DNA from: Natrialbaceae archaeon Tc-Br11_E2g8
Lineage (GTDB): Archaea > Halobacteriota > Halobacteria > Halobacteriales > Natrialbaceae
Direction of reading: 5' to 3'
Length of the DNA: 48,804 nucleotides
NCBI GenBank assembly: GCA_001564115.1
Contig: LKNG01000001.1
Span: 1 to 48,804, forward strand
The position numbers and the translations under genes are program-made. The notes below the pieces were generated by a model, which had not been told where the DNA came from, did no database searches, and saw only the letters and a program-made list of their open reading frames with translations. Shown here in pieces: positions 24,558-29,321 of the stretch; position 1 is the first letter of the stretch; each line of letters opens with the position of its first letter.

Positions 24558-25217
24558 CTACGCCGACCGGTCGTCGGACTCCGTCGGCTCGGCGTCCCCG
24601 TCGTTCTCGTTCCAGTCGAACGCGTCGTTCGATCCGCCGGCTCGATCGTCGTTCCCCGGACTCGGCGGCGTCGATCCGCCGGCTTCCAGCGGCGTCGGCT
24701 CTTCGCCTTCGATCGGCGTCGGATCCTCCCCATCGATCGGTGTCGGCTCGCCCCCGCCAGCTTCGATCGCCGGTTGCGTCGACTCCCGGTCGGGATCGAG
24801 GGCCTCCTCGTCGAACGTCTCGGCGTGTTCGGTCCGTTTGAGCTCCTGGACGCCCCGTCGAGTCGTCTCGATCTCGTCTTCGATCGCCGCCAGCCGGTCG
24901 TCGAGCACCTCGAGCACCTCGCTTCTGACGCGCTCGGTGTCGAAGGCGTCGGCGGCGGCCTCGCCGGCGGCCCGAGGGAGGGTCACGTAGAGCGCGAAGC
25001 TCCGGCCGAGCAGCCAGACGACCAGTCCGGCGAGTGCCAGCGCTCCGGTTACCGCCGGGTTCGCGGCGGCGGCCGGATCCGTCGGATCGGCGAGAAACGC
25101 CGAGAGGTCGAATCCGACGACGAGACCGAGCCCGACGAGCCCGGCGCCGACGACGACCGAAAGCAGCCAGATCCCACGGTACATCAGCGTCCACCTGAAC
25201 GCGTCACGACCGTCCAT
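24558..25217 (-). CDS. Membrane protein with two helices, coiled coil and acidic repeat tail
   Basis: 219 residues from ATG 25217; a TATA-like sequence (GGTTATACA on the minus strand, near 25244) lies 27 nt upstream. Two helices (about 15-40 and 55-75: LLSVVVGAGLVGLGLVVGFD, AVTGALALAGLVVWLLG) precede a coiled-coil-like segment (EVLDDRLAAIEDEIETTRRG) and a Pro/Glu/Asp-rich tail with repeated EPTPI(D/E)GE units. No known family is recognised. It is divergent from ppsA and shares the repeat-rich promoter region. Confidence 0.68.
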   Translation of the reverse strand: MDGRDAFRWTLMYRGIWLLSVVVGAGLVGLGLVVGFDLSAFLADPTDPAAAANPAVTGALALAGLVVWLLGRSFALYVTLPRAAGEAAADAFDTERVRSEVLEVLDDRLAAIEDEIETTRRGVQELKRTEHAETFDEEALDPDRESTQPAIEAGGGEPTPIDGEDPTPIEGEEPTPLEAGGSTPPSPGNDDRAGGSNDAFDWNENDGDAEPTESDDRSA

Positions 25218-25249
25218 GCGTGGGGGGTCACAGCCGACCTGTATAACCG

Positions 25250-25400
25250 CTATGGGCGATCGACCCCGTCCCGTGCAACCGCGATGGACGATCGACCCCG
25301 TCCTGTACAAACGCTGATGGACGATCGACCCCGTCCTGTACAAACGCTGATGGACGATCGACCCCGTCCTGTACAAACGCTGATGGACTATCGACCGCGG
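25250..25400. repeat. 33-bp tandem array in the divergent promoter region of ppsA
   Basis: Units: 25250-25282 (variant), then three identical copies 25283-25315, 25316-25348 and 25349-25381, and a partial copy from 25382. A weaker relative seems to precede the first. Each perfect unit contains GGACG-N8-CGTCC, a short inverted repeat, and a CGATCG centre. No spacers, so not CRISPR. Confidence 0.95.
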
Positions 25401-25423
25401 CCGACCCTGACGGGTTCGCAACC

Positions 25424-25432
25424 CTTTTTATC
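25424..25432 (+). promoter_or_regulatory. TATA-like box of ppsA
   Basis: CTTTTTATC, centred 30 nt upstream of the ATG at 25458. It lies just after the 33-bp repeat array and fits a leaderless ppsA transcript. Confidence 0.55.
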
Positions 25433-25457
25433 GGATCGACTGAGCCTATACGTACAG

Positions 25458-28400
25458 ATGGCAGTACTCTGGCTGGACGAGATCGACGCCGACGACGTAG
25501 AGCTGGTCGGCGGCAAGGGTGCCTCCCTGGGCGAGCTCACGGGAGCGGGGCTGCCGGTTCCACCGGGGTTCGTGGTCACGGCCGGAACCTATCGGCGCTT
25601 CATCGAGGACGCGGGGATCGACGAGGAGCTGTTCGAGACCGTCGACGTCGACGTCGACGACTCCGGCGCGCTCGCGACCGCGGCCGAGCGGGCACGGGAG
25701 CTCATCCGCGAGACGCCGTTTCCCGACGCGCTCCGCGAGGAGATCCTCGAGGCCTACGACGCGCTCGGGGACGAGCCGTTCGTCGCCGTCAGGTCGTCGG
25801 CCACGGCGGAGGACCTGCCCAGCATCGCCGCCGATGAGACCGCACTCTTGCGGATCGACGGCGAACCCGCGTTCGGCCGGATGGACGAGCTCGCGCCGCT
25901 CGACTGCAGCCGTCGGACGGTCGAAGTCCCCTCGCTGACCGACGACGGCATCGAGTGGCGAGAAGTGGAGACACTGTACGAACATCCGGCCGAAGACGAG
26001 ACGCTCCACCGCGTGACCACGACCACCGGTCGGCGGATAACGGTCACGCCGGATCACTCCCTCGTCGTGCTGGACGAGGACACCCTCGAGCCAACGACCG
26101 CGACGGTCGACGAGCTCGACGGCGAGGAGAAGCTGCCCGTCGTCCGGGAGCTGGCACCGATGAACGCCGGGCCGGACGAGATCGACGTGACGGAGTACGT
26201 CCGTGGCGGCGACGTCCTCGTCGGCGACGGTGGCGTCATGATCGACAACGATTCGCAAAACGAGACGATTCAGCACGCGCTCTCGGAGACGATCCGGGCC
26301 GACGAGGAGTTCGCGTACTTTCTCGGACTCTACGTCGCGGAGGGAAGCACGTACGGGGGCCACGAGATCACGATCACGAACACCAACGACGAGCTCCTCG
26401 AGCGGGCCCGTGAGTTCATGGACCGACTCGGGCTCTGGAACGGCCAGGCGAAAAACAAGGACTCCTACCGGTTTTACTGCAAATCGTTGGTCAGGTTCCT
26501 CCATGCGGTCGCCGGACGCCCGGGCGACACCGAGGGGAAAGGTCGGCTCGCCGAGAACAAGCGCGTCCCCGAGTTCGTTTTCGGCTGGGATCGATCCCGC
26601 ATCGGACAGTTCCTCCGGGGCTGTTTCGACGGCGACGGAACCGTCGGCGACGAGATTGCGTACGCTACGACCTCCGAACGGCTGGTCGAGGGGCTGGCCC
26701 GCCTGCTCGAACTGGTGGGACTCGACTATCGGATCCGCGAACGGAGCGGCCAGGGGGAGTGGAGTGACTCCTACCGTCTTTTCCTCCCGGCCCGGGAGGC
26801 GGCGGCGTTTCGCGAACGGGTCGGGTTCGAGTCCACGGCGAAGTCCGACCGGCTCGACGATCTGATCGACCGACACGAAAAAAAGGCCTATCATCCGCAG
26901 TTTTCCAGGACGATCACCGTCTCCGAGGCGCTTTCAGAACGGATCGGGGACCGGTTCGAGGACACCCTCCGGACCGAACGAGTTACCGTCGCCCGGTGTC
27001 CCGACTGCGACGGGGTAATAAACAAGTCGAGCCCGTACGATGGACGGGATCGGTGGTACTGTCCGGACTGCAGCGGAGCCTACTACGCAGAGGAGGTCAC
27101 GTTCGTCTCGGAGGACCGGAACGACCGACGCGACGAACGTGGCCGGTTCGAATCCGGCAACGCGCCGTGGAACAAGGCACGGATTACGGGAACGTACAGC
27201 CAGTCTCGGTTCAACGAACTCCTGGCGGAACGTGGCGTCGACTCGCTGGCGTTCGACGAGACGGTCGGCTGGGAAGGTATCGAACGGATCGAGCCGATCG
27301 AGTACGACGGCCCGGTGTATGACTTCTGTGTCCCGGAGGCGGAGAACTTCGCTGCGGGACGGGGGAGTGTCATCACCCACAACACCGCTTCGTTTGCGGG
27401 CCAGCAGGACACCTACCTCAACGTCACCGGCGAGAAGCTGCTCGATCGCGTCCGTCAGTGCTGGGCGTCGCTTTTCACCCAGCGGGCGATCTACTACCGA
27501 CAGGAGCAGGGGTTCTCCCACGCCGACGTCAACATCGCCGTCGTCGTCCAGCGGATGGTCGACGCCGATAAATCCGGCGTGATGTTCACCAGCCACCCCT
27601 CGACGGGCGAGTCGACGATGATCCTCGAGGCGGCCTGGGGGTTAGGCGAGGCGGTCGTCTCCGGGGCAGTCTCGCCGGACAACTACGTCGTCGACCGCGA
27701 GAACGGCGAGGTCGACGTTACCGTCGCCGAGAAGAAGGTGATGCACGTGAAAGACGAGGAGACCGGCGAGACGGTCGAACGGGAGGTCCCCGAGGAGGAC
27801 CGCGACAGGCAGGTGCTCTCGGCTCCGGAGGTCGAGCGGCTCGTCGAGCTCGGCGAACAGGTCGAGGACCACTACGGCACCCCCCAGGACGTCGAGTGGG
27901 CAATCGTCGGCGGCGACGAGCAGGAGCCCTCGACGCAGTCCGGCGAGGTGTACATGCTCCAGTCCCGGCCGATCACGACGATCGACGAGAGCCGAGCCGA
28001 GGCCGCGGGCGGGGCGACCGACGGGAGCGGGGCCGCGACGGCGGCGGAGGGCGAGCTCCTCGTCGACGGCCTGGGCTCGAGCCCGGGGACGGTCACCGGC
28101 CCCGCCCGGATCATCGGCAAGCTCGACGAGCTCGACAAGGTCGCCGAGGGTGACATCATCGTCACCGCGATGACCACACCAGACATGGTGCCGGCGATGA
28201 AGCGGGCGGCGGCGATCGTCACCGACGAGGGCGGGATGACGAGCCACGCCGCGATCGTCTCCCGCGAGCTCGGCGTCCCCGCCGTCGTCGGCGCCGGCGA
28301 CGCCACGAGCACCCTCGCCGACGGCCAGCTCGTCACCCTCGACGGCGACAAGGGGACGATCACCGCCGGCGAGGCGGACGTCGAAGAGGAGTACGACCCC

Positions 28401-29321
28401 GTCGAGGAGGTCCGACCACAGTCGCCGGTGAAGCCGATGACCGCCACGAAAGTCAAAGTCAACGTCTCGATCCCCGAGGCCGCGAGGCGTGCCGCGGCGA
28501 CCGGTGCCGACGGCGTCGGCCTGCTCCGGACCGAGCACATGATCCTCTCGCTCGGACAGACCCCCGGAAGCTACATCGAGGAGCACGGCGAGGACGCCTA
28601 CGTCGAGGAGCTCGTCGACGGCGTCCGGGAGGTCGCAGACGAGTTCTACCCACGTCCGGTCCGCGTGCGGACCCTCGACGCGCCGACCGACGAGTTCCGC
28701 CAGCTCGAGGGCGGCGACGACGAGCCCAGAGAGCACAACCCGATGCTCGGCTACCGGGGGATCCGACGCAGCCTCGACCGGCCGGACGTGTTCGCCCACG
28801 AGCTGGAGGCGTTCCGGCGGCTGTACGAGATGGGCTACGACAACGTCGAGATCATGCTCCCGCTGGTCAACGACAGCGAGGACGTCCTCGCGGCGCGAGC
28901 GTTGATGCGCGAGGCGGGCATCGACACGGAGAAACGCCGGTGGGGCGTGATGATCGAGACGCCGGCATCCGCGCTCTCGATCGACGGGATGGCCGAGGCC
29001 GGCATCGACTTCGCCTCCTTCGGCACCAACGATCTCACCCAGTACACGCTGGCCGTCGACCGGAACAACGAGCACGTCGCCGACCGGTTCGACGAGCTCC
29101 ACCCGGCGGTGTTGACGCTGATCGGCGACGTGATCGAGCGCTGTCGCGAGCACGGCGTCGAGACGAGTATCTGTGGGCAGGCCGGTTCGAAACCCGAGAT
29201 GGTCCGGTTTCTGGTCGAGACCGGCGTCAGTTCGATCTCCGCGAACATCGACGCCGTCCGCGACGTCCAACACGAGGTAAAACGGGTCGAACAGAAGCTG
29301 TTGCTCGACTCGGTCCGGTAG
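25458..29321 (+). CDS. ppsA: Phosphoenolpyruvate synthase interrupted by an intein
   Basis: 1287 residues as read; 766 after removal of the 521-residue intein, the normal length for this enzyme. PpsA converts pyruvate, ATP and water to PEP, AMP and phosphate for gluconeogenesis. N-terminal nucleotide-binding domain: LVGGKGASLGELTGAGLPVP and FVAVRSSATAEDLP; after the intein it resumes TASFAGQQDTYLNV. The mobile phosphohistidine domain has TDEGGMTSHAAIVSRELG (His of TSHAAI). The C-terminal PEP-binding TIM barrel has VGLLRTEHMIL, EHNPMLGYRGIRR, FASFGTNDLTQYTLAVDRN and SICGQAGSKPEM (catalytic Cys). The ATG is supported by the TATA-like box 30 nt upstream. A frameshift or pseudogene is excluded because the frame is continuous. 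Confidence 0.95.
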   Translation: MAVLWLDEIDADDVELVGGKGASLGELTGAGLPVPPGFVVTAGTYRRFIEDAGIDEELFETVDVDVDDSGALATAAERARELIRETPFPDALREEILEAYDALGDEPFVAVRSSATAEDLPSIAADETALLRIDGEPAFGRMDELAPLDCSRRTVEVPSLTDDGIEWREVETLYEHPAEDETLHRVTTTTGRRITVTPDHSLVVLDEDTLEPTTATVDELDGEEKLPVVRELAPMNAGPDEIDVTEYVRGGDVLVGDGGVMIDNDSQNETIQHALSETIRADEEFAYFLGLYVAEGSTYGGHEITITNTNDELLERAREFMDRLGLWNGQAKNKDSYRFYCKSLVRFLHAVAGRPGDTEGKGRLAENKRVPEFVFGWDRSRIGQFLRGCFDGDGTVGDEIAYATTSERLVEGLARLLELVGLDYRIRERSGQGEWSDSYRLFLPAREAAAFRERVGFESTAKSDRLDDLIDRHEKKAYHPQFSRTITVSEALSERIGDRFEDTLRTERVTVARCPDCDGVINKSSPYDGRDRWYCPDCSGAYYAEEVTFVSEDRNDRRDERGRFESGNAPWNKARITGTYSQSRFNELLAERGVDSLAFDETVGWEGIERIEPIEYDGPVYDFCVPEAENFAAGRGSVITHNTASFAGQQDTYLNVTGEKLLDRVRQCWASLFTQRAIYYRQEQGFSHADVNIAVVVQRMVDADKSGVMFTSHPSTGESTMILEAAWGLGEAVVSGAVSPDNYVVDRENGEVDVTVAEKKVMHVKDEETGETVEREVPEEDRDRQVLSAPEVERLVELGEQVEDHYGTPQDVEWAIVGGDEQEPSTQSGEVYMLQSRPITTIDESRAEAAGGATDGSGAATAAEGELLVDGLGSSPGTVTGPARIIGKLDELDKVAEGDIIVTAMTTPDMVPAMKRAAAIVTDEGGMTSHAAIVSRELGVPAVVGAGDATSTLADGQLVTLDGDKGTITAGEADVEEEYDPVEEVRPQSPVKPMTATKVKVNVSIPEAARRAAATGADGVGLLRTEHMILSLGQTPGSYIEEHGEDAYVEELVDGVREVADEFYPRPVRVRTLDAPTDEFRQLEGGDDEPREHNPMLGYRGIRRSLDRPDVFAHELEAFRRLYEMGYDNVEIMLPLVNDSEDVLAARALMREAGIDTEKRRWGVMIETPASALSIDGMAEAGIDFASFGTNDLTQYTLAVDRNNEHVADRFDELHPAVLTLIGDVIERCREHGVETSICGQAGSKPEMVRFLVETGVSSISANIDAVRDVQHEVKRVEQKLLLDSVR
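25821..27383 (+). mobile_element. Intein with LAGLIDADG homing endonuclease and zinc-ribbon insertion, in PpsA
   Basis: 521 residues (PpsA residues 122-642). Block A begins with Ser1 (SIAADETALLRI), block B is ITVTPDHSLVV with the TxxH motif, the endonuclease motifs are YFLGLYVAEGS and FLRGCFDGDG, block F is VYDFCVPEAENFAAG and block G is SVITHN followed by extein Thr+1. All residues for splicing are present (Ser1, block-B Thr/His, penultimate His, terminal Asn, Thr+1). A Cys4 zinc ribbon (CPDC...CPDC, encoded near 26998-27071) and a GRFESGNAPWNK segment lie between the endonuclease and block F. Insertion is exactly between Pro121 and Thr of the nucleotide-binding motif. Confidence 0.93.

Follow-up and report, generated by a model that had tools for sequence, protein, structure and literature searches.

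The PEP synthase gene (ppsA) of Natrialbaceae archaeon Tc-Br11_E2g8 carries an in-frame insert that, with a probability of roughly 0.9, represents a class 1 intein that bears an endonuclease, lies at a ppsA site new for haloarchaea, and splices and homes in the manner proposed below. The window (the whole stretch of DNA analyzed, 48,804 nucleotides) contains a forward-strand open reading frame at 24774–29321 that holds ppsA; the ATG at 25458 is its likeliest start. Within PpsA (25458–29321, forward strand, as are all parts of the protein described here) the insert occupies 25821–27383: 1563 bases, or 521 stop-free codons, equivalent to residues 122–642 of the product and foreign to PEP synthase. 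It begins with Ser, ends with SVITHN and is followed by Thr. These coordinates, the length and the junction residues had been given in an earlier sequence-only reading and proved exact when the frame was read again.

Taking out the insert leaves an ordinary enzyme. The N-extein (25458–25820, 121 amino acids, with AVRSSATAEDLP at its C-terminal end) and the C-extein (27384–29321, 645 amino acids plus stop, starting with Thr+1) join to 766 residues, a normal PEP synthase length and the size that the sequence-only reading had expected of the spliced protein. TIGR01418 (PEP synthase) scores above cut-off in two pieces that flank the insert, 2–133 on the N-extein and 127–784 on the C-extein, and the Pfam ATP-binding domain PPDK_N, matched by the N-extein at profile positions 2–115, is broken at about position 115/116. 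The flanks rejoin exactly, and the site is uninterrupted in 84 empty haloarchaeal loci, where it reads AEDLP-x-ASFAGQQ or a close variant; relatives therefore do possess the intein-free alleles that had been proposed as a check. The claim that the insertion lies inside a highly conserved stretch holds for this motif, but not for the position directly after the insertion (x), where the Thr found here is not the conserved residue. A 33-base unit (CCGTCCTGTACAAACGCTGATGGACGATCGACC) is repeated in five tandem copies with 90% matches some 60 bases upstream of the ppsA start (window 25234–25396) and could affect the ppsA promoter.

Models of the splicing and endonuclease parts (intein_Nterm, intein_Cterm, Intein_splicing and LAGLIDADG_3) all match the insert above cut-off, and the individual blocks are readily located. 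Block A (SIAADETALLRID, 25821–25859) contains the nucleophile Ser1, invariant among 16 aligned inteins; block B (GRRITVTPDHSLVV, 26028–26069) contains TPDH, in which H79 is invariant across the 16 rows and T76 nearly so. Block C (26316–26348), covered by LAGLIDADG_3, is the first LAGLIDADG motif, YFLGLYVAEGS, and block E (FLRGCFDGDGTV, 26610–26645) the second. Block F (GPVYDFCVPEAENFAA, 27309–27356) includes V499, Y500 and D501, and block G (GSVITHN, 27363–27383) ends with the penultimate His520 and Asn521; V499–D501 and T519–N521 are invariant in the same 16 rows. Ser1, the block B TxxH (T76/H79), H520 and N521, and Thr+1 are together the sequence marks of a class 1 intein. Class 3 was considered and rejected: Ser1 is present, and position 4 of block F, which from the block numbering we take to be D501, is not Cys.

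The predicted fold points the same way. An AlphaFold run with a 3-row alignment reached a pLDDT of only 40.9 and a 16-row alignment was used instead, giving a model with a mean pLDDT of 78.7 and a pTM of 0.78. This model has the Hint splicing fold, and intein structures stand first in its Foldseek list. The top matches are endonuclease-bearing inteins: TliVMA (PDB 7qss; E 4.6e-22, TM 0.62 by query length), PI-PfuI, PI-PkoII, PhoVMA and PI-SceI. The TliVMA intein, for all its likeness in predicted fold, differs in having Cys1, another host and just 16% identity. Motifs, profile models and predicted fold support, as a class 1 element, the full-length intein that the sequence-only reading had placed within PpsA's ATP-binding motif.

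Were the insert to splice as proposed, ppsA would be translated into a 1287-residue precursor in which an N–O shift at Ser1 would produce an ester at the N junction; Thr+1 would attack this ester, Asn521 would cyclise, and the 766-residue PpsA would be released. In inteins that have been tested, proline at −1 often disfavours the opening step of splicing. The oxygen-based chemistry on both sides, singled out earlier as a feature of this intein, would indeed follow from Ser1 and Thr+1, yet is ordinary: the same pair occurs in 14 of 14 related RNA polymerase A'' (rpolA) inteins examined. The free 521-residue intein would then act as an endonuclease of the LAGLIDADG type, aided in DNA recognition by an accessory four-cysteine ribbon, and would cut empty ppsA alleles; repair would copy the intein in and flanking bases with it, so that the Thr+1 needed for splicing would replace the usual haloarchaeal Asp. 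We regard as very improbable the view that the insert is a domain that does not splice and is simply tolerated by the enzyme. Such a domain would interrupt the ATP-binding motif, and every splice residue has been kept despite an identity between copies that falls to 43%; no other copy of ppsA was found in this 70%-complete genome.

Homologues occupy the same site elsewhere. A protein scan of a genome collection covering 84,980 species, with a reach confined to close relatives, returned a close pair: L015 (QS_4_69_225) and L016, the latter from a Haloarculaceae bin, each 77% identical over its full length. When 394 genomes of the phylum were searched with a profile, a distant carrier from another archaeal class was added, G450, whose ppsA (L061) is interrupted at this site by an intein of 43% identity with all motifs intact. 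The L061 gene also has a repeat-like KTGTGAGARKTGTG insert in its C-extein and a PDPDPN run in its intein. Among 394 genomes of Halobacteriales, 377 gave ppsA matches and the gene is interrupted only in the genome of the window and in G312 (2/394), a count based on the contiguous matches in each genome. Matches that were weak or split were looked at apart; the weak PpsA matches showed no intein, those read through being empty alleles. Within the genus of G312 (20 genomes) the intein is present in three genomes, ppsA is uninterrupted in 16 and one is without a match. The three carriers are different species: G312 itself (the source of L015), G714 (the source of L016) and G710. A contig end truncates the G710 copy (L079), which equals L015 at 249 of 254 residues. 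On the PpsA tree the carriers fall in three separate places: the family of the window, a single genus in a second haloarchaeal family, and an archaeon from a different class. Neither the protein patterns nor the junction pattern matched viral contigs, and plasmids yielded nothing beyond weak endonuclease matches in helicases. Ser1, the block B His, the terminal HN and Thr+1 are retained in all four complete copies; the erosion of splice residues in relatives that would have counted against the sequence-only reading is not seen. Elsewhere in the genome of the window (L014, G000:C87:9000-22000) a PolB frame of 1731 amino acids holds two further intein-like inserts with endonuclease motifs.

The residue following the insertion differs between the carriers and the empty alleles of haloarchaea. 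Thr+1 is found in every complete carrier; in the 84 empty haloarchaeal loci, a few of them duplicated within a single genome's data, Asp occupies this position in 77, Ser in five, Arg in one, Glu in one and never Thr. Empty alleles from the family of the distant carrier (n = 30) have Thr in 27 cases, Ser in two and Asn in one. Asp is unable to act as a +1 nucleophile, and since haloarchaeal empty alleles mostly carry it, Thr was probably brought in together with the intein, through co-conversion. An alternative source could be the few Ser alleles, which lie a single base change away. There is precedent for a splice-blocking +1 residue in the haloarchaeal MCM inteins, in another gene and with Pro rather than Asp: the Pro at +1 of their empty alleles blocks splicing and must be co-converted to Ser (PMC10643990).

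A tree of 75 PpsA proteins places the host genes with their own lineages: that of the window groups with its family (97/90), L015 and L016 lie inside their genus (99/97) and L061 lies inside its family. The starred branches of this tree force at least three changes of intein label. A further gene in the tree's reach, L063 (G706:C1:270102-271037), is a second ppsA in a genome of G312's genus that groups with the family of the window, and is apparently a transferred gene. Intein and extein identities are equal, both between the close copies (77 versus 76%) and with the distant one (43 versus 42%). At fourfold sites the nearest copies differ by 45–48% in the intein and by 32–46% in the exteins, and because of that divergence they are not recent transfers. 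First and second codon positions of the intein differ by 13%; set against the fourfold figure, this means that the intein is under constraint. No clear conversion tract was seen in the flanking codons searched beside the insertion site, as expected if the event is old and the tract by now invisible.

These data are compatible with independent gains and also with a single old element that was lost very many times, the gains requiring far fewer events. Judged from the sequences alone, the equal identities leave room for old co-inheritance with many losses. That the intein descended vertically from an ancestor shared by haloarchaea and the distant carrier, to be lost almost everywhere, nevertheless seems improbable to us: intein and extein identities do track each other and each host gene belongs to its own lineage, but losses would be needed in nearly all sampled haloarchaeal lineages, and the +1 residue of their empty alleles is Asp, not Thr.

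The condition of the endonuclease bears on whether the element still moves. Both LAGLIDADG motifs of the window intein have their catalytic acids, E174 in block C (shared by the haloarchaeal copies and L061) and D272 in block E (shared by L016 and L061), and endonuclease activity is predicted from them. In the L015 intein (L015:5001-6563) residue 272 is Asn, block E reading FDGNG as opposed to FDGDG, with the splice residues intact; this copy is probably a dead nuclease. Inteins commonly pass through such a nuclease-dead state during the homing cycle. From L015, and from the lack of any recent transfer visible in the sequences, one might argue that splicing has been kept and homing lost, the endonuclease decaying and the intein being retained since precise loss is rare. 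We find this doubtful: both acids are intact in the window, L016 and L061, and the endonuclease part is conserved like the N-terminal splicing part (80 versus 81% identity). Constraint peaks in the C-terminal splicing part, at 88%, and is looser in the accessory part, at 63–69%. Intact acids and a patchy distribution lend partial support to the earlier description of the element as active or recently active and mobile; the 45–48% fourfold divergence of its nearest copies speaks against recent transfer.

The four complete PpsA inteins, which come from two archaeal classes, share an accessory region that follows the second LAGLIDADG lobe and precedes block F. It comprises a four-cysteine ribbon (C393xxC396-17-C414xxC417, 26997–27071), with cysteines and spacing invariant (C-x2-C-x17-C-x2-C), followed by GRFESGNAPWNK (27141–27176) with the motif PWN(K/E). 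The ribbon is modelled as strands with good confidence (pLDDT about 86), the PWN stretch poorly. Several zinc-ribbon models of Pfam and NCBIfam match the ribbon, all below cut-off. We presume that the PWN motif recalls DNA-binding motifs of the NUMOD3 type; Pfam did not report NUMOD3 for it. The ribbon is a putative zinc ribbon accessory to the endonuclease, in its DNA-recognition region. Accessory domains tune DNA recognition by inteins, and that of TliVMA alters cleavage specificity (PMC8966425). A parallel is found in yeast HO and WHO, intein-like endonucleases with a cysteine zinc finger, described in 2020 as the only known intein–zinc finger fusions (PMC7282813), a statement that may be out of date; neither of these splices, and in both the finger stands at the C-terminus, whereas the PpsA ribbon is enclosed by an intein whose splice motifs are all present.

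Outside PpsA the best curated-model match is to archaeal rpolA inteins, which share Ser1, HN, Thr+1 and similar block A and LAGLIDADG parts at 26–32% identity; they differ in host gene and site, and ribbon and PWN motif are absent from those read. An rpolA allele was rejected as an identity for the insert: the rpolA site precedes TM(R/N)TFH, whereas the insertion in the window precedes TASFAG in PpsA. The same host enzyme has an intein in Methanocaldococcus jannaschii, probably at a site near the phosphohistidine and outside the ATP-binding motif; a pattern search for that site gave only out-of-frame or unrelated chance matches. A more specific history, in which a ppsA-homing element arose by the grafting of a zinc-ribbon targeting part onto an rpolA-type intein, crossed archaeal classes and converted Asp+1 to Thr in haloarchaea, is one that we offer tentatively, at somewhat less than even odds.

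In 118 halobacterial genomes, a survey published in 2014 recorded 24 intein alleles in 13 genes, most of them encoding DNA or nucleotide enzymes and none of them ppsA (PMC4071816). Our search, made in the main texts of open-access papers, found none linking PEP synthase to an intein. Elements of this kind are well known; the PpsA intein is a new allele in a host gene off the published haloarchaeal list, and with it a central carbon enzyme joins the 13 intein-bearing genes listed in 2014. Its ribbon may exemplify the exchange of accessory DNA-recognition parts among inteins. With its carriers, its Asp-bearing and Ser-bearing congeners and a distant family in which Thr is native, ppsA offers a natural test of intein invasion into alleles whose +1 residue forbids splicing.
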